Origin: Azonexus hydrophilus
Lineage (GTDB): Bacteria > Pseudomonadota > Gammaproteobacteria > Burkholderiales > Rhodocyclaceae
Direction: 5' to 3'
Assembly (NCBI RefSeq): GCF_001956855.1
Contig: NZ_MTHD01000003.1
Coordinates: forward strand, 186,001 to 250,000
Length of the DNA: 64,000 bases
Each line of letters starts with the position of its first letter. The stretch's first letter is position 1. Shown here in pieces: positions 9,330 through 32,884 of this stretch. The notes beneath the pieces are model-generated. The model was not told where the DNA came from. It was given only the letters and a program-made list of their open reading frames with translations, and made no database searches. The position numbers and the translations under genes were made by a program.

Positions 9330-10729
9330 GATGAGTCCCCCTGATTGAATTCCGTATCCTTGCCCGCCGGCAGCCAGAGGCGGGCGCGCAGGCCGCCGAG
9401 CGGCGAGTCGAGCAATTCCAGGTGACCACCATACAGGCTGGCGAGTTCGTCGACAATCGACAGGCCGAGGCCGGAGCCGGCCACTTTCTCGTCGCCGCGC
9501 CGGCCGCGTTGCAAAAGGTTCGGCCGATCTTCCGGGGCGATTCCCGCGCCGTCGTCGTCAATGTCGATACGCAGCCGGGTGTCTTCCCGGACGGCGCTGA
9601 CGTGGATGCGTGAGCCGGCCCATTTGCAGGCGTTGTCGAGCAGGTTGCCGAGCATTTCCTGGAGGTCCTGCGCCTCGCCGCGAAAAACCAGCGGCTCGCT
9701 GCCGTCGGCCAGCGTCAGCGTAAGGTCGCGCTCGGCGTGAACCCGCTGCATGACCCGGAGCAAACCTTCGGTCGCCGGGCGGACCGCACACAGCCGGCCC
9801 TGGACCTGGGCGGCAGCGGCGCTGCGCGCGCGCGCCAGGTGATGGTCGATCTGCTGGCGGGCGATGGCGACCTGGCTGCCGACCAGTTCGGCCAGCTCGC
9901 CGGTTTCGCTGGCGGCAGCGTTGGCCATCACCGCCAGCGGCGTCTTCACGGCGTGGGCCAGGTTGCCGGCCTGGCCACGGGCGCGTTCGACAAATTCCGC
10001 ATTGCGCGCCAGCAGCGAGTTGAGTTCATCGACCAATGGCTGAATTTCGGCTGGATGCCGGCCGGCCAGCGTTGCCTGTTCGCCGTCGCGCAGCCGGGTC
10101 AGTTCATCGCGCAGGCGATTGAGCGGACGCAGCCCGGCCACCACCTGGACCACGGCGGCCAGGGCCAGGCCGCCGGCGAGCAGCCCGAGCGCCGCCAGCA
10201 GCAGGCCGCGGAAACGCGCCAGGGGCTCTGCCAGCAGGGTTTCGTCGGCAGCGACGATCAGGCGCAGCGTCAATCCAGGCTGTTCTGCCGGGTGCATGAC
10301 CTGTTCGATCATGCGCAGCGATTCCCCTTTCGGTCCGCTGACGCGATGCTCGTGGCGCTCGCCATCGGCCAGTCGGTCGCGGGGCACGACCAGTTCGCCG
10401 TCCCACAGCGAGCGTGAGCGCAGCAGCGCGACCTGTGCCGTTCCGTCGCCGGTCGTCATGCGGTCGACCTGCCAGTACAGGCCGGAATAGGGGCGCTCCA
10501 GCCGGGGATCGCTGAGGATATGGCTGATTTCCGGCTCGCCGGCTGCGTTCAGCTCCAGGTTGGCGGCCAGCTGGTTGAGATGGGTGGCCAGTTCGGCATG
10601 GAACTGACGCGACAGATGCTGCTCGAACATCGCCTGCAGCATCCAGCCGGCGATGCCGACGGTCGCCACGATCCACACCAGCGTACCGGCCAGCAGCCGG
10701 AAGCGTAGCGAGGTGCCGCCGTCTTTCAT
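9326..10729 (-). CDS. Sensor histidine kinase (PhoQ-like), first two-component system
   Basis: A 467-residue membrane kinase. Helix 1 is at about 8-30, a periplasmic sensor domain follows, helix 2 is near 175-197, then a HAMP segment. The H-box is [13 protein letters not shown], with LLDNACKWA (N-box), DDDGAGI and GSGLGLSIV (G-boxes). The HAxKTPL form is that of PhoQ-type kinases. ATG 10729 overlaps the regulator stop by ATGA and is preferred over GTG 10741. The signal is unknown; the neighbouring PepSY and Met-rich proteins suggest a periplasmic cue such as redox state or metal. Confidence 0.85.
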
Positions 10730-22030: not shown

Positions 22031-22708
22031 ATGCGTCTGCTGATCATTGAAGACAATCCCGACATCCTCGCCAACATCGTCGATTATTTCGAGGCTGCCG
22101 GCCATGTCGTCGATTGCGCCCGCAACGGCCCGGGCGGCCTGCATCTGGCGCTGACCGAGCGCTTCGACCTGATCGTTCTGGATATCATGCTGCCCGGCAT
22201 GGACGGCTACCAGTTGTGCGCCAGCCTGCGCGGCGCCGGCAATATCGTGCCGATCATCATGCTGACCGCCCGCGATGCGCTGGACGATCGCTTGCAGGGA
22301 CTGCGCGCCGGTGCCGACGATTACCTGGTCAAGCCGTTCGCGCTGGCCGAACTGCAGGCCCGTATCGATGCCATCCTGCGGCGTACGCAGGGTCGGCAGC
22401 AACAGCGTCTGCAGGTCGGCGACCTGGTCTTCGACCTCGATGATTTCACGGTCTCCCGTGCCGGCCAGCCGCTGCGCCTCAATCCGGCCTGCCTCAAACT
22501 GCTCGAAGTGCTGATGCGCAAGAGTCCGGCGGTGGTCCGCCGCGAAGTCCTTGAAGAAGCACTGTGGGGCGACGACCCACCGGCCAGCGACGGCTTGCGC
22601 AGCCACCTGCACCTGCTGCGCCAGGTCATCGATAAGCCCTTCGCCCATCCCCTGCTGCAGACCATCCATGGTGTCGGCTATCGCCTGAGCGAGGTTGAGC
22701 ATGCTTGA
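22031..22708 (+). CDS. OmpR-family response regulator, second two-component system
   Basis: A 225-residue regulator with receiver domain (acidic pair EDN near 7, VLDIMLPGMDG with Asp near 51, TARD, KPF) and C-terminal winged helix ending TIHGVGYRLSE. It overlaps the kinase gene by 8 bp. Position after the SHP/DHC genes suggests it controls them, as in other shp clusters that carry a two-component system. It has an atypical wing and recognition helix compared with the regulator at 10726, so a different DNA site is expected. Confidence 0.86.
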   Translation: MRLLIIEDNPDILANIVDYFEAAGHVVDCARNGPGGLHLALTERFDLIVLDIMLPGMDGYQLCASLRGAGNIVPIIMLTARDALDDRLQGLRAGADDYLVKPFALAELQARIDAILRRTQGRQQQRLQVGDLVFDLDDFTVSRAGQPLRLNPACLKLLEVLMRKSPAVVRREVLEEALWGDDPPASDGLRSHLHLLRQVIDKPFAHPLLQTIHGVGYRLSEVEHA

Positions 22709-23966
22709 AAAACAGCCGCTGGCACGGCGTATCGTGCTCTCCTTTGCGCTGCTGACCGCGCTGACCTGCGGCATCTTCGCCTGGGGCGTCATTGCCGTCG
22801 TGCATCTGGTCGAGGATGACCTGATCGGTGAAGAACTGCGGGCGGAAATGGCCGAGGTCGAGACGGTTTTCGTCAAGGAGGGGCGGGTGCCCGATCTGGC
22901 CGGTGGCAGCACGCTGTACGTGCCGTCGCTGCAGGCGCGTGCTTTGCCGCCGGCGCTGGCCGGGGTGCATGCCGGTTATCAGGAAGTTACCGGCGAGGCC
23001 GGGGCGTGGTACGTCCTGGTCAGCGAGATCGCCGGCCAGCGCTTCATCCTGGCACGTAACCAGGATGCCTTCGAAGCGCGCGAACAATTGCTGTACCGGG
23101 TGGTCATTGCCGGCTTTTTCCTCGCCGTTGCGCTGGCGCTGCTGATCGGCCGGCTGACGGCGCGCCGGGTGATCGACCCGGTGGTCCGGCTGGCCAGCCA
23201 GGTGCGCAACCGCAACCAGTTGCTGCCGCTGGCCCCATCGCTTGCCTCCGATTACGGCGACGACGAACTCGGCCAGCTGGCCCGTGCCTTTGATCAAGCA
23301 ATGGACCAGTTGCGGGCAGCGGTCGAGCGCGAGCGCTTGTTCACCAGCGATGTCAGCCACGAGTTGCGGACACCGCTGATGATCATCGGCACCTCCGGCG
23401 AACTGCTGGCCCGCGCCGAACTCGGGCCGCGCGAACGGCGCCAGGTTGAACGCATTGGCAAGGCGGCCGACGACATGCGCGGTCTGGTCGATACCTTCCT
23501 GCAACTGGCGCGCGCCCAGTCGGCCGGCGGCAACGCCGGTGAGGCGGTGACGCTGGCTGAAGTGGCTGCCGAGCAGGCGGCCTACTGGGGCGAGGAAATC
23601 CGCAACCGCGGCCTGGCGTTCCACTGGCAGGTCGATGGCGAAAGCCAGCGCTGCTGGCATCCGACGCTGTTGCGCGTGGTCATGGGCAACCTGCTGCGTA
23701 ACGCCCTGCATTACACCGAGCATGGAGAAATCCGCCTGATCGTCGAGGCCGACGGTTTTCGCGTCGAGGACACCGGCCCGGGCATTCCGGAAACCGAGCG
23801 GGAGACGCTGTTCCAGCCGTTCGTGCGGGGCAGCCGGGCGCGCGGTGAAGGGCTCGGCCTCGGCCTGTCGCTGGTCAAGCGGGTGTGCGAGCAGCAGGGC
23901 TGGACGATCAGTGCGAGCAATCTGACGAGCGGTGGCAGTCGCTTCGAGATCCTTCTCGGGCAATGA
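22701..23966 (+). CDS. Sensor histidine kinase, second two-component system
   Basis: A 421-residue kinase. Helix 1 about 11-35, a periplasmic sensor of about 100 residues, helix 2 about 135-152, HAMP to about 205, then H-box FTSDVSHELRTPLMI, N-box NLLRNALHYT and G-boxes VEDTGPGI and GLGLSLV. ATG 22701 is used because GAGG at 22691-22694 is properly spaced; TTG 22695 is the alternative. The small periplasmic domain and the upstream PepSY protein suggest an envelope or redox cue. Confidence 0.86.
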   Translation: MLEKQPLARRIVLSFALLTALTCGIFAWGVIAVVHLVEDDLIGEELRAEMAEVETVFVKEGRVPDLAGGSTLYVPSLQARALPPALAGVHAGYQEVTGEAGAWYVLVSEIAGQRFILARNQDAFEAREQLLYRVVIAGFFLAVALALLIGRLTARRVIDPVVRLASQVRNRNQLLPLAPSLASDYGDDELGQLARAFDQAMDQLRAAVERERLFTSDVSHELRTPLMIIGTSGELLARAELGPRERRQVERIGKAADDMRGLVDTFLQLARAQSAGGNAGEAVTLAEVAAEQAAYWGEEIRNRGLAFHWQVDGESQRCWHPTLLRVVMGNLLRNALHYTEHGEIRLIVEADGFRVEDTGPGIPETERETLFQPFVRGSRARGEGLGLGLSLVKRVCEQQGWTISASNLTSGGSRFEILLGQ

Positions 23967-23967
23967 T

Positions 23968-24016
23968 TTGACGAATTTTTGACAGGCTTTTGACGGGCTG
24001 TTGACGGCCGGTTGGC
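23968..24016 (+). promoter_or_regulatory. Tandem 11-bp TTGAC repeats before the methyltransferase operon
   Basis: TTGAC begins at 23968, 23979, 23990 and 24001, exactly 11 bp apart, and a degenerate fifth unit TTGGC begins at 24012. On the minus strand the units read GTCAA, resembling direct-repeat sites of PhoB/OmpR-type regulators. The array starts right after the kinase stop and ends about 35 bp before ATG 24052. It is the clearest operator-like array in the window. Which regulator binds is unknown; PhoB or the adjacent regulator at 22031 are candidates. Confidence 0.6.
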
Positions 24017-24051
24017 TATCGTTGCGGACATGCTTTCCAGAAAGGTCCGCA

Positions 24052-24741
24052 ATGTCCGCTCAACAATCAATTCAGCTTGAATTCTCGCGCAAGTACGACA
24101 GCGCGCACGCCTGGCAGTATTTCCGCAAACACCAGGACGGAATCGCCCGCCGCCTGTCCAATCTGCGCGACCAGCAGCTTGCCCGGCGGGCGCTGGCCAT
24201 CGCCGGCGAACCTGGCCTGGTGCTCGATCTACCCTGCGGTGCCGGCCGTTTCTGGCCGCTGCTGGCGGAAAAGGCGAACCGGGTCATTCTCGCCGCCGAC
24301 AATTCACCGCACATGATCGATGTCGCCAGACGCTCGCAACCGCCTGAAGTCGTTGCCCGCGTTCATGCCTTTCAGGCTTCGGCGTTCAACATTGATCTTG
24401 GCGATGCTGCGGTCGACAGCATTTTCTGCATGCGTTTGCTGCATCACATCGCCGAGCCGGCACATCGTCTGGCCATGTTGCGCGAATTCCATCGCGTCAC
24501 CCGCGACACCCTGATCGTTTCGCTGTGGGTTGATGGCAATTTCAAGTCGTGGCGGCGCAAGCGCCTGGAAACGCAGCGCGCCGCACGTGGCGGCAGCAGC
24601 GCCAATCAGAACCGTTTCGTCGTTGCCCGTAGCGTGATCGAAGGCGAATTCGCCGAAGCCGGTTTCAACATCATCGGTGCCCAGGATTTCCTGCCCGGAT
24701 ACGCCATGTGGCGGGTTTGCACCTTGCGCAAAGCATCATGA
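24052..24741 (+). CDS. Class I SAM-dependent methyltransferase
   Basis: A 229-residue methyltransferase. Motif I is VLDLPCGAGRFWPLL (about 66-80), motif II ILAADNSPHMID and motif IV-like IFCMRLLHHI. ATG 24052 follows AGAAAGG and is better than 24001, which lies within the repeat array. It overlaps the sulfatase-like gene by ATGA. Co-expression with two lipid-envelope enzymes suggests a lipid or head-group substrate, but the substrate cannot be read from the sequence. Confidence 0.78.
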   Translation: MSAQQSIQLEFSRKYDSAHAWQYFRKHQDGIARRLSNLRDQQLARRALAIAGEPGLVLDLPCGAGRFWPLLAEKANRVILAADNSPHMIDVARRSQPPEVVARVHAFQASAFNIDLGDAAVDSIFCMRLLHHIAEPAHRLAMLREFHRVTRDTLIVSLWVDGNFKSWRRKRLETQRAARGGSSANQNRFVVARSVIEGEFAEAGFNIIGAQDFLPGYAMWRVCTLRKAS

Positions 24742-26597
24742 TCCTGTCGAATCGCGGCGTTCTGCAACGCTATTTCGTTCTCCTGTATCTCGCGCTGTTC
24801 GCCATGATCGGCCTGTTCTGGCCGCTGGTCTCCTTCGACGGCAGTGCCGCCTGGGGATTTGCTGCACTGGCCAGCGCCGCCTATGCCGGTTTGTACCTGT
24901 TGCCGGTGGTGCTCGTCAGCGCCCTGACGGCCTTCCTCTTGCCGAAAGACTGGGCGCCCCGTCATGCGCTGGTCGCCACGCTGGCTTTCATCGGCGGCAG
25001 CCTGGCGCTGCTGGCGGTCTATGCCGACTACCGGCTGTACGCGCTGTATCAATACCATTTCAATGGTTTCGTCTGGAACCTGCTGACCACCCCCGGCGGG
25101 ATTTCAGCGCTGGGCGCGACCGCCGAGACCGAGCGGACGATTGCCATCCAGGTGGCGATGTTCGTTGCCGGCAATGCGGCGGTGCTGCTGTCGCTGCATC
25201 ATTTCCGGGCGCACGGTCCGGTTTTCCGGCGGCGTGCCGTGGCCTTCGCGATGGTGGCCATGGTCGGTCTGCTGACGGTCGAGGAAGGTGTCTATGCCTA
25301 CAGTGTGCATACCGGTCAGGAGGCCTTGCTCGAGGCCGCCGATGTCGTCCCTTTCCATCTGCGTAGCGGCGCCAAGCGGCTGCTGACCCGTCTCGGCGTC
25401 GAGCGGCGGGCGCTGCAGGAACTGCGTCTGGCCGGCGGCACCGTCGATTACCCGGGCGGCACCCTGACGACCGGGCAGGTCAAGCAGGACATGAACGTCA
25501 TCGTGCTGGTTGCCGAATCCTTTCGCTGGGATCTGCTCGACCCGGAAATCACGCCGAACCTGTGGAAATTTTCGCAGCGGGCGACGCGTTACGAAAACCA
25601 CTACAGCGGTGGCAACCGGACGCGGATGGGGCTGTTCTCGATGTTCTACGGCATCTATGCGCCGTACTGGTACAGCTTCGAGCAACAGCGCGTGGCGCCG
25701 GCGCTGATGAACTACATGCGCCAGCACGATTACCAGCTGGCGCTGCACACCAGCCAGAGCTTCGACTACCCGGAACTGCGCAATACGCTGTTTGCCGGCG
25801 TGCCGGAAGCCAACATGCAGGAACTGCGGACCGGCGAACCCTGGCAGCGCGACATCCAGAACATCGACGACCTGAAGGTCAAACTGGACCAGCGAGCGCA
25901 CGACAAGCCCTTTTTCGGCTTCATGTTCTTCGAATCCACGCATGCGCCGTACACCTTTCCCGAGGAGACGGCGCTGCGCAGCGACTACCTGCGCGAGCTG
26001 AACTACGTGAAGCTCAATCTGCGCGACAACATCGAGGGTATCCACGCCCGCTACATCAACGCCGCCCACCATGTTGACAGCCAGGTCGGGCGCCTGATCG
26101 AACACCTGGAAAGCACCGGCATGCTCGACAAGACCGTCGTCTTGTTCAGCGGCGATCACGGTGAGGAGTTCATGGAAAAGGGCCACTGGGGCCACGGCCA
26201 CAGCAACACCTTCCCCGAAGAGCAGGTCCGTGTGCCGCTGGTGCTCTGGCTGCCGGGCCAGGCGCCGGCTGTGGTCACGCATCGCACTTCGCACCTGCAG
26301 ATCGCGCCGACGCTGCTCACTTACCTTGGCGTGACGCAGCCGGCCCGCAGCTACAGCTCGGCCGATACCCTGGATCAGACCATGCCCTACTTCGTCTTCG
26401 GCGAATACGACCACATGGGCATTTTCGACGGTGCGCACAAGATCACCTTCCCTTACACCGGCAGCGATTTTTTCCGCTACAGCGTGTTCGACGCCGCCGA
26501 CCAGCCGCTTCCCCGGATGGAGCGCGAGGCGGTGCTGGCAGGCGCGACCGGGCTGATCGACGAAGTCACCCGGGAAAGCCGGCGCTTTGTCCGCTGA
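24738..26597 (+). CDS. YejM/PbgA-like membrane sulfatase-fold protein (DUF3413 type)
   Basis: A 619-residue inner-membrane protein. About five helices fill residues 1-190, and the segment RLYALYQYHFNGFVWNLLTT resembles the corresponding YejM region. The periplasmic alkaline-phosphatase-fold domain (about 245-600) has metal-site candidates VAESFRWD (Glu), GGNRTRMGLFSMFYG (Thr nucleophile position) and SGDHGEEF (Asp-His). YejM regulates lipopolysaccharide synthesis through LapB/FtsH; this copy keeps residues expected for phosphotransfer, so it may also be an enzyme. It overlaps the methyltransferase gene. Confidence 0.75.
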   Translation: MILSNRGVLQRYFVLLYLALFAMIGLFWPLVSFDGSAAWGFAALASAAYAGLYLLPVVLVSALTAFLLPKDWAPRHALVATLAFIGGSLALLAVYADYRLYALYQYHFNGFVWNLLTTPGGISALGATAETERTIAIQVAMFVAGNAAVLLSLHHFRAHGPVFRRRAVAFAMVAMVGLLTVEEGVYAYSVHTGQEALLEAADVVPFHLRSGAKRLLTRLGVERRALQELRLAGGTVDYPGGTLTTGQVKQDMNVIVLVAESFRWDLLDPEITPNLWKFSQRATRYENHYSGGNRTRMGLFSMFYGIYAPYWYSFEQQRVAPALMNYMRQHDYQLALHTSQSFDYPELRNTLFAGVPEANMQELRTGEPWQRDIQNIDDLKVKLDQRAHDKPFFGFMFFESTHAPYTFPEETALRSDYLRELNYVKLNLRDNIEGIHARYINAAHHVDSQVGRLIEHLESTGMLDKTVVLFSGDHGEEFMEKGHWGHGHSNTFPEEQVRVPLVLWLPGQAPAVVTHRTSHLQIAPTLLTYLGVTQPARSYSSADTLDQTMPYFVFGEYDHMGIFDGAHKITFPYTGSDFFRYSVFDAADQPLPRMEREAVLAGATGLIDEVTRESRRFVR

Positions 26598-26631: not shown

Positions 26632-28581
26632 ATGCTTCCCCAGTTCATCCGGCGGCATTTGCCGCACCATGCCCAGAGCCGTTATCTGGCGCTTCTCCTC
26701 GCCAGCTGGTGGCTGGTGTTCACCCTGACCCGGGGCGCACTGCTGCTGAAAAGCGGCAGCACCGCCGGCATCACGCCGCTGCTGGCGCTGGAGGTCTTTG
26801 CCACCGGGCTGCTCTACGACCTGGCTTTCCTTGTTTATGCCGCAGTGGTCCTGGGCTGCCTCCTGCTCATCGTTCCCTGGCGCTGGCGCGAGCGCCGCTG
26901 GCATGGCGTCGGGCGGCAGGTCGTGCTGGTCGGCAGCCTCTTTGCGATGTTGTTCGTGGCTGTTGCCGAGTGGCTGTTCTGGGACGAGTTCGGGGTGCGC
27001 TTCAACTTTATTGCGGTCGACTACCTGATTTACTCAAAAGAGGTCATCGACAACATCCTCCAGTCCTATCCCGTTTTTTCAATACTTGGCGTCATTGCCG
27101 TGCTGGCGCTGGCTGCTGGTGCGCTGGCAGCGCCGGCGCTGGAAGCGGTGCAGCGAGCGCCGCTGGCCAGCCGCAAGCGCTCGGCCGGGCTGCTGGTGTC
27201 GTTGTTGCTGGTGGCGGTGGTGGTCATGTTGCTGCTCGGCCAGGACGGACCGGGACGCAACAGCGGCAACGCCTGGCAACGGGAGCTGGCCGGCAACGGC
27301 CCGTACCAGTTCTTTGCTGCCTTCCGCAACAACGAAATCGCCTACGGGCAGTTTTATGCCGAACTGCCGGCGGAGGAAGTCGGCCGTCTGGTGCGCGCCG
27401 AACTCGCCGAACCGAATGCCCGTTTCATCGGCCGGCAAGCGCAGGACATCCGCCGCGTCATCGACAATCCGGGGGCGCCGCGCCGCCTGAACGTCGTCCT
27501 GGTGACCATCGAAAGCCTGAGCGCGAAATATCTCGGCAGCTTCGGCGATACCCGCGGGCTGACACCGAATCTTGATCGCCTGCGCAGCGAAAGCCTGTTC
27601 TTCAGCAATTTTTACGCGACCGGCACGCGCACCGACCGTGGCCTGGAGGCGATCACCCTGTCGATTCCGCCGACGCCGGGGCGCTCCATCGTCAAGCGCA
27701 TCGGCCGGGAAAGCGGTTATGCCAGCCTGGGCTACCAGTTCCGCCGCCAGGGTTACGACACGGTCTTTGTTTATGGCGGTCGCGGCTATTTCGACAACAT
27801 GAATGCCTTTTTCTCCGGCAACGGCTACCGGATTGTCGATCAGGCCCGGGTGCCCAAGTCCGAAATGGCCTTCGAGAACGCCTGGGGCATGGCCGACGAG
27901 GATCTTTACCGGCAGGCACTGAAGCTTGCCGATGCCGATCATGCGACAGGCCAGCCGTTTTTCCTGCAACTGATGACGACCTCCAACCATCGACCCTACA
28001 CCTACCCGGATGGCCGCATCGACATACCTTCCGGCAGCGGTCGCGAGGGCGCGGTCAAATACACCGATTACGCGATCGGGAAGTTTCTCGCCGAGGCGCG
28101 GCAAAAACCGTGGTTTGCGCAGACTGTCTTCGTCTTCGTCGCCGATCATAACGCCGGCAGTGCCGGTCAGCAGGATCTGCCAACGGAAAACTACCGGATT
28201 CCGCTGTTCATCCATTCGCCGGGCAACGTGCCGGCGCGCGAGGTGGCGACGCTGGCCAGCCAGATCGACCTGGCGCCGACGCTGCTCGGTCTGCTCAATA
28301 TCGATTACACCTCGTCGTTCTTCGGTCGCAACCTGCTGCTCGATCCGGCGCGGCCCGGGCGGGCGTTGATCGGCAACTACCAGCATCTCGGGCTGTTCGA
28401 CGGTGAGCAGCTTGGCATTCTCAGCCCGCGCCGCGTGTTGCGCCTGGCCGGGGGCGACGGCGAGCAGCCAGCAGCCGGGGACGAGCCGCTGATCCGTCGT
28501 GCCGTGGCCTATTACCAGGCCGCCAGCCACCTCTTTGGCGAGCACCTGCTCGGGCCGCCGGCGTGGGAAATCAGTCGCTGA
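26632..28581 (+). CDS. LTA synthase-like phosphoglycerol/phosphoethanolamine transferase
   Basis: A 649-residue member of the LtaS/OpgB group. Five N-terminal helices (about 10-205) precede a periplasmic sulfatase-fold domain with VTIESLSAKYLGSFG (Glu), GTRTDRGLEAI (Thr nucleophile) and VADHNAGSAG (Asp-His). In Gram-negatives such enzymes transfer phosphoglycerol or phosphoethanolamine from phospholipid to periplasmic glucans or other glycans. ATG 26632 is preferred to the frame opening at 26587, since it begins the membrane segment. It lies 34 bp after the YejM-like gene and converges with cpxA, overlapping 11 bp. Confidence 0.8.
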   Translation: MLPQFIRRHLPHHAQSRYLALLLASWWLVFTLTRGALLLKSGSTAGITPLLALEVFATGLLYDLAFLVYAAVVLGCLLLIVPWRWRERRWHGVGRQVVLVGSLFAMLFVAVAEWLFWDEFGVRFNFIAVDYLIYSKEVIDNILQSYPVFSILGVIAVLALAAGALAAPALEAVQRAPLASRKRSAGLLVSLLLVAVVVMLLLGQDGPGRNSGNAWQRELAGNGPYQFFAAFRNNEIAYGQFYAELPAEEVGRLVRAELAEPNARFIGRQAQDIRRVIDNPGAPRRLNVVLVTIESLSAKYLGSFGDTRGLTPNLDRLRSESLFFSNFYATGTRTDRGLEAITLSIPPTPGRSIVKRIGRESGYASLGYQFRRQGYDTVFVYGGRGYFDNMNAFFSGNGYRIVDQARVPKSEMAFENAWGMADEDLYRQALKLADADHATGQPFFLQLMTTSNHRPYTYPDGRIDIPSGSGREGAVKYTDYAIGKFLAEARQKPWFAQTVFVFVADHNAGSAGQQDLPTENYRIPLFIHSPGNVPAREVATLASQIDLAPTLLGLLNIDYTSSFFGRNLLLDPARPGRALIGNYQHLGLFDGEQLGILSPRRVLRLAGGDGEQPAAGDEPLIRRAVAYYQAASHLFGEHLLGPPAWEISR

Positions 28582-29659
28582 CCAGCGGCAATTCGAGGTC
28601 GACGCGGAAGCCGCCGTCGGCCAGGTTTTTTGCCCTGATCGTGCCGTCGACCGCAGTCATTACCCGACGGGCGATGGCCAGGCCGAGGCCGTGACCGTTG
28701 CCGATGGCGTTGCTGGTGCGGCGGAAGGGTTCGAAGATGAACGGCAGTTCGTCTTCCGGCACGCCGGGGCCGTGGTCGAGGACGCTGATCCGGCAGCGCC
28801 GGTCGGGCGTGATGGCGCTGACGATGCGAACCCTGCCGCCGGCCGGGGAATGCTTGAGGGCGTTGCGTACGACATTTTCGACCGCCCGGTGCAGCAGCTC
28901 GGGATTGGCGCGGACGCGCAGGCCGGGGGTTTCGTCGATATCGATGATGAGGTGACGGGGGGCCGCTTCCAGACGGGCGTCTTCCAGCAGGTCGGCGATC
29001 AGTTCGTCCAGTTCGATGGTCTCGATGGCGCCGCCGACGCCGGCTTCCAGCCGCGACAGCGTCAGCAGTTCGCCGACCAGGTGGTTCATCCGCTCGCCTT
29101 CACGTTCGAGGCGGTTCATCGTTTCGTCGAAGCGTTCCGGTTCCTGGCGTGCCAGGCCAATGGCCGCATGCAGGCGGGCCAGCGGCGAGCGCAGTTCATG
29201 CGAGACATCGTGAAGCAGCCGGGTTTGTGCGTCGAGCAGGCTGCGCAGGCGTTCGCTCATGCGGTCGAAGTCGTGGCCAAGATCGGCCAGTTCGTCGCGG
29301 CGACGCCCCATCGCCGGGGCGATGCGCAGGCTCAGGTCGCCCTCGGCGGCGGCAGCGAAGGCAGCCTTGAGCCGGCGCACCGGGCGGGCGACGTACCACG
29401 CGATGGCGCCGGCTGCGGCCAGGCTGGCGAGCAGGCCGGTCAGGATCGGCAACAGCGGCAGCGGCGGCGGTTTGCCGGGAAATCCCGGTGGTGGTGGACG
29501 CATCTCGTCGTTCGCTGCCCGGGGTGGTGGTGGTCGGTGTTGCTCGAAACGGCTCCGCAGCTCGTCGCGTTCGATCCAGAAAATCGCCGCCGTGCCGAGG
29601 ATTGCGCTCAGTTGCGCCAGCCAGACGATGAGGAAGAACTTCCAGAACAGGCGTCCCAT
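28571..29659 (-). CDS. cpxA: Envelope-stress sensor kinase, CpxA-like
   Basis: A 362-residue kinase. Helix 1 about 7-25, a short Pro-rich periplasmic part (about 30-65; RPPPPGFPGKPPPLPLL), helix 2 about 68-90, then HAMP, H-box LLHDVSHELRSPLARLH, N-box NVVRNALKHS and G-boxes LDHGPGVPEDE, GHGLGLAIA. The kinase and regulator order and the GTAAA boxes before the regulator support a Cpx assignment. The periplasmic domain is much smaller than in E. coli CpxA, so its signal may differ. GTCGACCGCA lies at 28646. Confidence 0.78.
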   Translation of the reverse strand: MGRLFWKFFLIVWLAQLSAILGTAAIFWIERDELRSRFEQHRPPPPRAANDEMRPPPPGFPGKPPPLPLLPILTGLLASLAAAGAIAWYVARPVRRLKAAFAAAAEGDLSLRIAPAMGRRRDELADLGHDFDRMSERLRSLLDAQTRLLHDVSHELRSPLARLHAAIGLARQEPERFDETMNRLEREGERMNHLVGELLTLSRLEAGVGGAIETIELDELIADLLEDARLEAAPRHLIIDIDETPGLRVRANPELLHRAVENVVRNALKHSPAGGRVRIVSAITPDRRCRISVLDHGPGVPEDELPFIFEPFRRTSNAIGNGHGLGLAIARRVMTAVDGTIRAKNLADGGFRVDLELPLVSD

Positions 29660-29661
29660 GT

Positions 29662-30342
29662 TCAGCCCGGAATCATCTGGTAGCCCTGGCGGAACACCGT
29701 CTGGATCGGCGAGCGGCCGTCGTCGAGCAGGCCGAGCTTCTGGCGGATGCTCGACAGGTGCACGTCGATGCTGCGATCGTAGCGGGCCAGCGGTCGGCCG
29801 AGTGCCTGGGCGGACAGTTCATCCTTGCCGACGATGTGGCCGGCGTTGCGGGCCAGCACTTCGAGCAGGTTGAATTCGGTGCTGGTCAGTTCGAGCAGTT
29901 GTCCCCGCCATTCTGCCCGGCGCTGCGCGGCATGCAGGCGCAGCGGGCCGACGGCCAGTTCGCCGTTGTCCTGCGGTGCGCTGGCACTGCGCCGCAGGAT
30001 GGCGCGCAGGCGGGCGGCCAGCTCGCGCGGCAGGCAGGGTTTGGGGACATAGTCGTCGGCACCGAGTTCGAGGCCGACGATGCGATCCATGTCGTCGCCG
30101 CGCGCCGTCAGCATCAGCACCGGCATCCGGCTGCCGGCGCGGATGCGGCGCAACGCTTCGATGCCGGAAATCCCCGGCATCATCACGTCGAGCACGGCGA
30201 TGGCGAAATTGCCGGACAGCGCCGCCTGCACGCCGCTTTCACCGTCGTGCGCGAGATCGACGGCAAAGCCGTCGCGCCTGAGGTAATCGGCAAGCATGCC
30301 GGCCAGTTCCACATCGTCGTCGATCAGCAGCACGGCTGCCAT
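29662..30342 (-). CDS. cpxR: Response regulator, CpxR-like
   Basis: A 226-residue OmpR-family regulator: acidic pair IDDD, VLDVMMPGISG (phospho-Asp near 52), TARG, KPC in place of the common KPF, and a winged helix ending TVFRQGYQM. ATG 30342 has GGAG eight bases upstream; the GTG three codons earlier is less likely. It ends 2 bp before cpxA. A perfect GTAAA-N5-GTAAA site lies 70-84 bp upstream on its own strand, matching the known CpxR box and indicating autoregulation. Confidence 0.82.
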   Translation of the reverse strand: MAAVLLIDDDVELAGMLADYLRRDGFAVDLAHDGESGVQAALSGNFAIAVLDVMMPGISGIEALRRIRAGSRMPVLMLTARGDDMDRIVGLELGADDYVPKPCLPRELAARLRAILRRSASAPQDNGELAVGPLRLHAAQRRAEWRGQLLELTSTEFNLLEVLARNAGHIVGKDELSAQALGRPLARYDRSIDVHLSSIRQKLGLLDDGRSPIQTVFRQGYQMIPG

Positions 30343-30411
30343 GTCCTGCACTCCATCATTTCCGGATTCAAGTCGGCATCATAGCCAAGGGGGCGCCGCC
30401 AGAGCGCTGTT

Positions 30412-30657: not shown

Positions 30658-31296
30658 ATGATCAGTGGTGTCGGTAGTTCGTCACAAATGAGCCAGCTGT
30701 TTTCCCGGCTGGACAGCAAGAGCCAGGGTTACCTGGAAAAAAGCGACCTGGTGTCGGCTTTCAGTGCCATTTCCGGGACCGAAGACAGTGCCGCCGAAGA
30801 GCTGTTCGCGGCGCTGGATGCTGACAGCGATGGCAAGGTCACGGAAAGCGAGTTTGCCTCGACGCTGAGCAAGCTGCAGGAGGAACTCGACAGCCAGTTC
30901 GCCCAGATGCGCATGCAGGGCATGGCCGGGCAGGGCCCGCAAGGCATGGGTGGCATGCCGCCGCCGCCACCACCAAACGATGAGGGTTTCACGCAGGAAG
31001 AACTGGAAGCGCAACTGACGGAAATCGGCGATTCGGATAGCGAACGCAGCAGCCTGATTACCGACATCGTCTCCAACTTCGAGGCGGCCGACAGCGATGG
31101 CGACGGCAAGGTCAGCTTCCAGGAAGCGATGGCCTACAAGGATGAGCAGCAGTCAGCCAGTGGTACCGAGGAAAGTTCGACGACACAGGCCAGCAGCAGC
31201 GAATCGCAGGTGTTGAAGCAGATCATGCAGTTGATGCACGCCTATGGCCGTCCGGACCAGGATGAGGCCACCAGCCTGCTGTCGACGCTGGCCTGA
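30658..31296 (+). CDS. EF-hand calcium-binding protein
   Basis: A 212-residue acidic protein with no signal peptide. Two canonical EF-hand loops are clear, DADSDGKVTESEF (near 55-67) and DSDGDGKVSFQEA (near 146-158), each preceded by a less perfect one (RLDSKSQGYLEKSDL; IGDSDSERSS), so it is a double EF-hand pair. The linker is Met/Gly/Pro rich (GMAGQGPQGMGGMPPPPPP). Similar proteins are sometimes named XopAW-family after a Xanthomonas effector, but no type III system is visible here. It sits opposite cpxR, behind a CpxR-like site, so Ca2+ and envelope stress may be linked. Confidence 0.8.
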   Translation: MISGVGSSSQMSQLFSRLDSKSQGYLEKSDLVSAFSAISGTEDSAAEELFAALDADSDGKVTESEFASTLSKLQEELDSQFAQMRMQGMAGQGPQGMGGMPPPPPPNDEGFTQEELEAQLTEIGDSDSERSSLITDIVSNFEAADSDGDGKVSFQEAMAYKDEQQSASGTEESSTTQASSSESQVLKQIMQLMHAYGRPDQDEATSLLSTLA

Positions 31297-31304
31297 TTCA
31301 GGGG

Positions 31305-32258
31305 TCAGGCCGGGGCCGGGCACTCGTCGCAGCGGTGAATCTCCACGGTGACGTGGACGATTTCCTCGTGGATGGCGAGTGCTTGGCGTACGGCCAGTGG
31401 TGTCAGCGCCGGGTCGTGCGTCAGCAGCGAGACGGCGCAGGCATAGGCGCCGTTGCCGACGCGCCAGACATGCAGGTCGGTGATTTGGGTGCCGGGCGGC
31501 AGTTCGCCGATGACCTCGCGGATTTCCGCGACCACGGGATGATCCATCTCGCGGTCGAGCAGCACGCGGCCGGTGTCGCGCAGCAGGTTCTTCGCCCATA
31601 GCGCAACCAGCACGGCGCCGACCAGCGCGCACGCCGGATCGAGCCAGTCCCAGCCGTAAAACCAGCCGCCGGCCAGCGCGCCGATGGCCAGCACCGAGGT
31701 CAGCGCATCGGTGATGACGTGGATGTAGGCGGCCTTCAGGTTGAGGTCGTCGTGCTGATGGCCGTGACCATGATCGTGGCCGTGGTGATGGTCGTCACCG
31801 CCGGCGCGGTGCAAAATTGCCGCGCAACCGAGGTTGACCGCAAGACCGAGGACGGCGACGACCAGGGCTTCGGCGTAGCGGATCGGCTGCGGTTCGAGCA
31901 GCCGGTCGACGGCGCCGAGCACCATCAGCGCGGCGACGGCGATCAGGAACAGCGCGCTGGTATAGCCGCCGAGCACTTCGATCTTCCAGGTGCCGAAGGC
32001 GAAACGCGGGTCGTTGGCGTACTTGCGGGCGGCAGCGTAGGCAAACACCGAGAGGCCGATGGCCAGCGCGTGCGAACTCATGTGCCAGCCGTCGGCGAGC
32101 ACGGCCATCGAGTTGAACCACCAGCCGGCGGTGATTTCGACGACCATCGTCACCAGCGTGATCCACAGCACGATCCGCGTGCCTTTTTCGGCGCGGGTGT
32201 TGCCGGTGCCGAAATCGTGAGTCTGTTCCCAGCGGGAAATGTCGTGATGGGCGTTCAT
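31305..32258 (-). CDS. dmeF: CDF cation efflux transporter, DmeF-like (Co/Ni)
   Basis: A 317-residue cation diffusion facilitator with six helices. The transport-site residues appear in SMAVLADGWHMSSHAL (helix II) and YIHVITDALTSVLAI (helix V). A His-rich loop (HHHGHDHGHGHQHDD) lies between helices IV and V, and a C-terminal metal domain ends HRCDECPAPA. The pattern DGWHMSSHA and the N-terminus THDFGTGN fit DmeF, which exports cobalt and nickel. ATG 32258 overlaps the aldolase stop (ATGA), tying metal export to the methionine-salvage genes; class II aldolases use divalent metals. Confidence 0.82.
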   Translation of the reverse strand: MNAHHDISRWEQTHDFGTGNTRAEKGTRIVLWITLVTMVVEITAGWWFNSMAVLADGWHMSSHALAIGLSVFAYAAARKYANDPRFAFGTWKIEVLGGYTSALFLIAVAALMVLGAVDRLLEPQPIRYAEALVVAVLGLAVNLGCAAILHRAGGDDHHHGHDHGHGHQHDDLNLKAAYIHVITDALTSVLAIGALAGGWFYGWDWLDPACALVGAVLVALWAKNLLRDTGRVLLDREMDHPVVAEIREVIGELPPGTQITDLHVWRVGNGAYACAVSLLTHDPALTPLAVRQALAIHEEIVHVTVEIHRCDECPAPA

Positions 32259-32884
32259 TGCTGGCCGTAACTCCCGAATTTTTCGCTGACAGCGGCCATT
32301 TCGTCGGCGCTCAGCAATACCGGCTGGCCGAGCTGGCAGGCGCGCCAGTATTGTTCGCACAGTTCCTCGAGTTCGATCGCCAGCGCCAGTGCCTCGTCCA
32401 GATCGCGGCCGGCGACCAGCAGGCCGTGGTTGGCGAGCAGGCAGGCCTTGCGCTTTTCCATCGCCGCCAATGCTGCGGTCGACAGTGCCTGCGAGCCAAA
32501 AATGGCGTAGTCGGCGCAACGGACGGTATCGCCACCGAAGCGCGCGATCATGTAATGGAAGGGCGGGATGTCCAGACGCAGGCAGGCCAGGCTGACGGCG
32601 AACGGCGAATGGGCGTGCAGCACGGCGCCGACGTCCGGCCGGGCGGCATAGAGGTCGCGGTGGAAACGCCATTCCGACGAAGGCTTGCGCCGGCCGATGG
32701 CGGCGCCGTCGAGCGTCATGTGCGGGATGTCGTCGGGCGTCAGCGTTTCGTAGGCCATGCCGGTCGGCGTGATCAGGAAGCCGGCGCCGTCGCGCACGCT
32801 GACGTTGCCGGCGGTGCCACGGTTCAGTCCGGCCGGACGCATGGCGCGGGCGGTGGCGATCAGGGCGGCGCGCGGATCAGTCAT
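32255..32884 (-). CDS. Class II aldolase, FucA/Ald2-like (candidate 5-methylthioribulose-1-P aldolase)
   Basis: A 209-residue class II aldolase. It follows E. coli L-fuculose-1-phosphate aldolase closely at GLNRGTAGNVSVRDG, LITPTGMAYETLT and SSEWRFHRDLY. The metal site is complete: E71, H90, H92 and H153. It overlaps mtnA by 8 bp. In Rhodospirillum rubrum and some E. coli a similar aldolase acts after MtnA, splitting 5-methylthioribulose-1-phosphate into dihydroxyacetone phosphate and methylthioacetaldehyde (DHAP shunt). That role is inferred from context. MtnB dehydratase is less likely because the N-terminal motif is of FucA type. Confidence 0.72.
   Translation of the reverse strand: MTDPRAALIATARAMRPAGLNRGTAGNVSVRDGAGFLITPTGMAYETLTPDDIPHMTLDGAAIGRRKPSSEWRFHRDLYAARPDVGAVLHAHSPFAVSLACLRLDIPPFHYMIARFGGDTVRCADYAIFGSQALSTAALAAMEKRKACLLANHGLLVAGRDLDEALALAIELEELCEQYWRACQLGQPVLLSADEMAAVSEKFGSYGQQ

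Follow-up and report, generated by a model that had tools for sequence, protein, structure and literature searches.

The four head-to-tail TTGAC repeats found after a two-component gene pair and before a methyltransferase gene in the window (the whole 64-kb stretch of Azonexus hydrophilus DNA analysed here) very probably constitute the operator of the promoter of a warA-like operon, bound by the ColR-type regulator encoded at 22031, as judged from comparisons of sequence. Exact TTGAC units, each followed by six other bases, were confirmed at 23968, 23979, 23990 and 24001, as given in the preliminary description, with TTGGC at 24012 and then TATCGT at 24017. TTGAC occurs 40 times on the plus strand and 67 times on the minus strand of the window (107 on both), and at this density four in-phase copies are expected by chance 6e-8 times per 64 kb, counting both strands. 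The features of the region, all on the plus strand, are as follows.

22031..22708, plus strand: colR-like OmpR-family response regulator (Pfam Response_reg and Trans_reg_C).
22701..23966, plus strand: colS-like sensor kinase with FEARE at residues 124–128 of 421 (HAMP, HisKA and HATPase_c; motif).
23968..23978, plus strand: half-site 1, TTGAC plus six bases, which together with half-site 2 makes the 16-bp ColR core TTGACGAATTTTTGAC (15/16).
23979..23989, plus strand: half-site 2, TTGAC plus six bases; YTSAC perfect in 66/67 selected related promoters.
23990..24000, plus strand: half-site 3, TTGAC plus six bases; YTSAC perfect in 46/67 selected related promoters.
24001..24011, plus strand: half-site 4, TTGAC plus six bases; YTSAC perfect in 27/67 selected related promoters, with one mismatch in 31.
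24012..24016, plus strand: TTGGC spacer between half-site 4 and the −10, with the half-site A not conserved in relatives.
24017..24022, plus strand: putative −10 hexamer TATCGT, 11 bp past the TTGAC of half-site 4, an offset conserved in relatives.
24052..24741, plus strand: warA-like class I methyltransferase, first gene of the operon (Methyltransf_25/11).
24738..26597, plus strand: YejM/PbgA-like inner-membrane sulfatase-fold protein (Sulfatase and DUF3413).
26632..28581, plus strand: phosphoglycerol-transferase/LTA-synthase-like sulfatase-fold protein (Pfam Sulfatase).

The TTGGC at 24012 had earlier been counted as a fifth, degenerate unit. We rejected it as such because the half-site A is missing there in 67 related promoters, the fourth base carrying 0.15 bit; in each of units 1–4 the same base is A in 67/67, a figure favoured by the choice of these promoters by their score in units 1–4 and the −10, which has no bearing on the fifth unit. 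The start codon of the methyltransferase, at 24052, is located 46 bp past the last exact TTGAC, the distance of about 35 bp reported before having been counted from the fifth unit.

With regard to the genes, that of the kinase overlaps that of the response regulator, and the YejM-like gene shares 4 bases with that of the methyltransferase. The methyltransferase itself has 69% identity to its counterpart after the kinase in Pseudomonas peradeniyensis (locus L104). For the YejM-like protein the top PDB chain was YejM (5i5h, 87 bits), with 136 bits to NCBIfam LapC_YejM_PbgA, under its cut-off of 825, and the protein at 26632..28581 matched PDB 3lxq (uncharacterised VP1736, 240 bits) and NCBIfam phosphoglycerol transferase I (86 bits, under cut-off). 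Relatives of the latter protein (61–68% identity) are, by synteny, the divergent gene at 43 of the colRS loci collected. A methyltransferase together with two sulfatase-fold enzymes agrees, by gene family, with the envelope-modifying operon that had been proposed. Further along, at 28571–30351 on the minus strand, a CpxA/CpxR-like two-component pair is convergent to the operon, which is consequently flanked by two envelope-type two-component systems. A cation-efflux family protein is encoded nearby (31308–32672, minus strand), fitting a metal theme, and a 212-aa EF-hand protein (30658–31296) lies between the cation-efflux gene and the CpxR-like gene.

The identity of the regulator was assessed using as query the Pseudomonas ColR of L104, so named by its gene order regulator-kinase-methyltransferase-LPS kinase. 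In the genome of the window this query retrieved the window regulator first (68% identity, 317 bits), followed by a paralogue encoded on contig 12 (65%, 310 bits); the third protein by score reached 133 bits at 41% identity, with a few short partial matches lower down reaching 43–48%. The window regulator was also 67–71% identical to five Pseudomonadaceae regulators found in the order colR-colS-warA, which is the order in the window, where the warA-type methyltransferase operon is adjacent. By similarity and gene order, the window regulator is a ColR orthologue and its locus a ColRS locus. Two points raised earlier were borne out, namely that the regulator at 22031 is a candidate binder and that one-turn direct repeats point to the OmpR/PhoB type. 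What counts against assigning 22031 itself is that the genome holds two near-identical ColRs, so that the acting one may be either the window ColR or its paralogue.

The kinase supports the same assignment. Its FEARE directly precedes the second membrane helix (the helix being read by eye), and FExxE was found in 89/89 kinase rows (8 of which are the two copies of this genome), as FExRE in 83 and as FExHE or FExYE in the other six. According to the available text of PMC4074579, FExRE (E126, E129) of P. putida ColS is needed for zinc and iron sensing, and its signal is an excess of zinc, iron, manganese or cadmium. RaxH of Xanthomonas is called a ColS orthologue, in the part of PMC8306577 at hand, on the criteria of motif position, periplasmic domain size and gene neighbourhood. 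The name warA is that of the methyltransferase family, and in strain WCS365 the warA-warB operon is described as ColR-dependent (PMC8805031, from the text available).

For P. putida, the text of PMC2689224 that was available gives the ColR core as (T/C)(T/C)NA(C/G)NN(T/C)TTTTT(C/G)AC, a 16-bp stretch with two direct repeats, and dimer binding is described. Searched as YYNASNNYTTTTTSAC, this core matched 15 of 16 positions at 23968–23983 (units 1–2), the sole best match on either strand of the window, with A for Y at position 8 as the one mismatch, while TTGACGTTTTTTTGAC at the divergent promoter of the paralogue matched it 16/16 by eye. In terms of sequence, the published core is two half-sites 11 bp apart, to which units 1–2 of the window correspond. 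The same paper places a ColR site about 60 nt before the start codon of PP0903, which is the P. putida counterpart of the methyltransferase and whose operon, with the gene order seen in the window, is activated by ColR (10-fold more active in the wild type than without ColR), and since ColR protected only 24–26 bp there, which is about two half-sites, units 3–4 may act by spacing or weak binding. It also mentions, as data not shown and, in the text seen, without sequences, additional less conserved boxes in three promoters, and proposes cooperative binding to several sites (PMC2689224). On rereading its Table 1, we found the in-phase AC of a third half-site in six of the seven footprinted sites, upstream in four and downstream in three, one site having both; only 2 of 200,000 flank shuffles reached six of seven.

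Other copies of the array were found by the genome scan that the preliminary description had suggested. Within the 3.6-Mb genome, three in-phase TTGAC gave five overlapping matches, all within three arrays, and the relaxed YTSAC three-unit pattern gave the same five, the backwards control yielding none in either case. All arrays with at least three exact units were situated at two ColRS loci, where they precede either warA or a divergent sulfatase-fold gene. At the paralogous ColRS locus (L036, G000:C12:377000-396000) the methyltransferase promoter reads TTAAC-TTGAC-TTGAC-TTGAC, N11, TATCGT, and four exact TTGAC units precede the divergent sulfatase-fold gene. A looser array beside the paralogue has TTGAC, TTCAC, TTGAC and GTCAC at spacings of 11/12/11, then N11 and TAACAT, and precedes a third sulfatase-fold gene of that region by about 350 bp. 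Cross-talk is likely because the two ColRS pairs share near-identical operators. The second ColRS-warA locus (1816–10300 of L036) has a Kdo/WaaP-type LPS kinase after the methyltransferase and a divergent phosphoglycerol-transferase-like gene, and the remnant of a broken YejM-like gene is seen at about 10180–10293. Allowing one mismatch in the three-unit pattern gave nine genome matches (backwards control 0): the five already described, two that lengthen arrays already described, and two isolated ones (C10:524755 and C14:120582). Relaxing position 8 of the 16-bp core gave 10 matches, as compared with 4 in the backwards control. Three of the ten lie in promoters of the two ColRS loci; the other seven were judged from the letters around them and from open frames, and some four matches are to be expected from the control. 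These genome scans with the three-unit pattern and the 16-bp core established no far-off targets such as dgkA, eptA or the like.

We then assembled related promoters through the methyltransferase. A search of the family gave a match in 95/199 genomes, many of them weak, whereof the loci of the 30 best were used; a search of the class gave 11/369, and of 531 confirmed named stretches the best 80 were taken (Pseudomonas, Stutzerimonas, Halopseudomonas, Azonexus and others). Leaving out upstream regions shorter than 160 bases kept 122, and removal of 28 near-copies left 94 non-redundant. In these 94, YTSAC pairs were found 121 times at 11 bp, 68 times at 22 and 21 times at 33, as compared with a mean of about 0.4 at each spacing in 200 shuffles (maximum 3 at 11 bp). 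A four-unit score of at least 18 was reached by 54/94 regions and at least 17 by 66/94; in 9,400 shuffles 18 was never reached, and 17 occurred eight times. Among the 67 related promoters, conservation is highest in unit 2 and lowest in unit 4, which in Stutzerimonas is often TTGAT. A lack of conservation in close relatives had been named as a point that would refute the array; relatives both close and distant have kept it.

The −10 also keeps its place. It was seen in 67/67 promoters, a count that is not independent because the −10 letters gave a bonus in choosing the register, and the count was therefore repeated with the register set by the units alone, in regions scoring at least 18 (79, or 53 non-redundant). 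The A and T of a −10-like hexamer then stood 11 bp past the last YTSAC in 51/53 methyltransferase promoters, and at the same offset in 21/21 promoters of the divergent sulfatase-fold gene (39/43 divergent regions having passed the score threshold, 21 of them non-redundant); any other offset tested had them in at most two promoters. In 16 further divergent regions, without a sulfatase-fold gene or from the P. putida and P. fluorescens groups, scores ranged from 12 to 19, the −10 A/T being at the fixed offset in 12 and absent in 4, and divergent promoters of the P. putida group have a weak fourth unit (such as AGGAT).

Taken as one model, four units with a fixed −10 are far more specific than the two-repeat box, giving 140 matches in 968 kb of colRS-neighbourhood DNA, which comprises the 80 named loci picked by their methyltransferase and still contains near-copies; the reversed control gave none. 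Of these modules, 72 lie before the methyltransferase, 56 diverge from colR and 12 are elsewhere. Ten of the 12 are found at 437–602 in their loci (nine alike, L056 different), and the other two are in the divergent promoter of L039 and before a relocated sulfatase-fold gene in Azonexus hydrophilus. The nine alike, a third four-unit promoter of ColR type, are seen at L055:602, at L069:535 and, similarly placed, in seven other loci from Stutzerimonas or related bacteria. In L055 and L069, the sole two with frames listed, the next gene is a small lipoprotein-like one (129 aa and no Pfam match in L055), which is a possible new ColR target.

The array and an adjacent kinase are not always found together, which tells against the ColR reading. 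With a ColS-like kinase directly upstream, 84/85 methyltransferase loci scored at least 15 (the exception being L098), as compared with 20/40 in the absence of an adjacent kinase. The 20 loci below that score (L009, L033-L035, L043, L061, L082, L084, L111, L118-L127 and L129) have no adjacent ColS-like kinase by the test used, and L118-L127 and L129 come from other families. When four named genomes were scanned whole with the three-unit pattern, 12/12 matches fell inside colRS loci by coordinates, with two backwards-control matches in one genome (G625) and none in the others.

Among close relatives, a ColS-like kinase at E <= 1e-60 was present in 10/60 genomes of the genus, including that of the window. 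Of the nine other congeners with the kinase, six had an array score of at least 17 after colS and six had one on the divergent side of colR; L159 had an array on neither side. The locus of L154 is cut at the regulator and has the array directly before the YejM-like gene, with no methyltransferase found in the 3.3 kb examined. When 40 kinase rows were placed in a tree, those of the window, of the paralogue and of the nine congeners fell into one starred group of 11 (100/100). Because the kinases group together and yet are patchily present in the genus, the system is probably old in the Azonexus group and often lost or gained, the patchiness suggesting loss or transfer.

The readings competing with a ColR operator were weighed against the same data. 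The preliminary description had raised PhoB as a possible binder, in an operon that might answer phosphate starvation, and 11-bp direct repeats do suit binding by the PhoB family. The pho box is CTGTCAT N4 CTGTCAT, and its best match in the window does fall within the array, at 14/18. That match is, however, on the minus strand, opposite to transcription, and among the 122 upstream regions the best match was 9–12 in 112 and 13–14 in 10 (window and paralogue included), with no pho box that reads toward the gene and is kept in relatives. Unit 2, moreover, is mostly TTCAC in relatives (C in 47/67), which breaks the shared TGACA, and the adjacent ColR-like regulator gave 153 bits with the PhoB model, the cut-off of which is 296. 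We consequently hold control by PhoB to be highly improbable, the comparison with the PhoB box having turned out against it. The regulator at 29662, which had also been named as one to test for binding, is an OmpR-family protein at the far end of the operon with CpxR-like as its best NCBIfam match (under cut-off). Its control of the operon through the array would be an extremely improbable arrangement, considering that colRS loci of several genera carry the array, and that the strict three-unit pattern, searched in five whole genomes (this one and the four named), occurs only at such loci by coordinates. This protein is 35% identical to the ColR-like regulator overall and 27% in the DNA-binding part, and the CpxR site consists of GTAAA repeats, unlike the array.

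It is likewise extremely unlikely that the array is no operator at all, being instead either a stack of −35 hexamers (TTGACx) that belong to constitutive promoters or a tandem repeat of chance or coding origin. The −35 consensus does begin with TTGAC, the five bases of each unit, but the −10 is separated by 21 bp from the hexamer of unit 3 and by 10 bp from that of unit 4, rather than by 15–19 bp, and at 15–19 bp none of 53 related promoters has a good −35 hexamer, TTGACA being matched at no more than three positions with one exception of four. Tandem Repeats Finder does report weak 11-bp repeats at the array; many relatives nevertheless keep YTSAC at 11 bp although the intervening bases diverge, and the array is not ColS coding sequence, because its start falls one base past the colS stop codon.

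Under the preferred reading, an operator for ColR, the following sequence of events may be proposed. ColS would sense excess metal through its periplasmic FExxE, as shown in P. putida, and would phosphorylate ColR, whereupon phosphorylated ColR would bind along one face of the helix to the four head-to-tail TTGAC half-sites, in the simplest case as two adjacent dimers. Units 1–2, holding the T-rich core, would be the published ColR box, lengthened toward the promoter by units 3–4, with unit 4 behaving as if weaker and being filled cooperatively. Because half-site 4 lies where a −35 would be, with no −35 hexamer present, ColR may take the place of the −35 contact and recruit RNA polymerase in a class II-like activation. 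The methyltransferase and the two sulfatase-fold enzymes would then alter LPS or other envelope lipids or glycans, as far as their families indicate. Metal excess is the likelier signal, by analogy with P. putida.

On balance we favour a more general model, in which the ColR operator is a four-half-site head-to-tail YTSAC array and not just a two-repeat box, taking two ColR dimers and fixing polymerase 11 bp from the last unit. From Pseudomonadaceae to the Azonexus group, this module would be kept at promoters to either side of colRS; in Stutzerimonas it would also drive the small lipoprotein-like gene, and in the window it would bring two enzymes, one YejM-like and one phosphoglycerol-transferase-like, under the control of metal stress. 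In pseudomonads, metal tolerance, the colonisation of roots and changes in the membrane are under ColRS, the regulon of which has been predicted with the 16-bp two-repeat box; with the four-site model, the local regulon could be read in other genera as well. For two envelope enzymes of unassigned substrate in Azonexus-group bacteria, the model further points to a probable regulator and to metal excess as the probable signal. Among the matches listed from open-licence papers, neither a ColR operator of four half-sites nor ColRS in the Azonexus group was described.

Comparison with known systems places the array as follows. The double pho box of E. coli pstS has four half-sites as 11-bp direct repeats, about 10 bp before the −10. 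PhoB arrays of that kind resemble the present one in being OmpR-family direct repeats at 11 bp with four half-sites, but differ in half-site sequence and orientation, and their regulator is from another subfamily. Xanthomonas RaxH-RaxR (PMC8306577, as far as available) is alike in the ExxE before the second membrane helix and in having adjacent genes for envelope lipid remodelling, which there are eptA, lpxE and arnT, unlike those of the window. The Pseudomonas colR-colS-warA-warB locus (PMC8805031; PP0901-PP0904 in PMC2689224, both from the text available) shares the order colR, colS, warA with the operator between colS and warA, but continues with the LPS kinase gene warB, where the window has the YejM-like and phosphoglycerol-transferase-like genes instead; the contig 12 paralogue, unlike the window, has kept a Kdo/WaaP-type kinase after the methyltransferase. 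The ColR box of P. putida (PMC2689224, same text) agrees with the array in half-site letters, in the 11-bp repeat and in its place between colS and the methyltransferase gene, whereas it is a 16-bp core of two direct repeats and the window has four exact units in 44 bp with a fixed −10. The papers searched define a box of two repeats, and the four-site layout with a fixed −10 was not seen in them.
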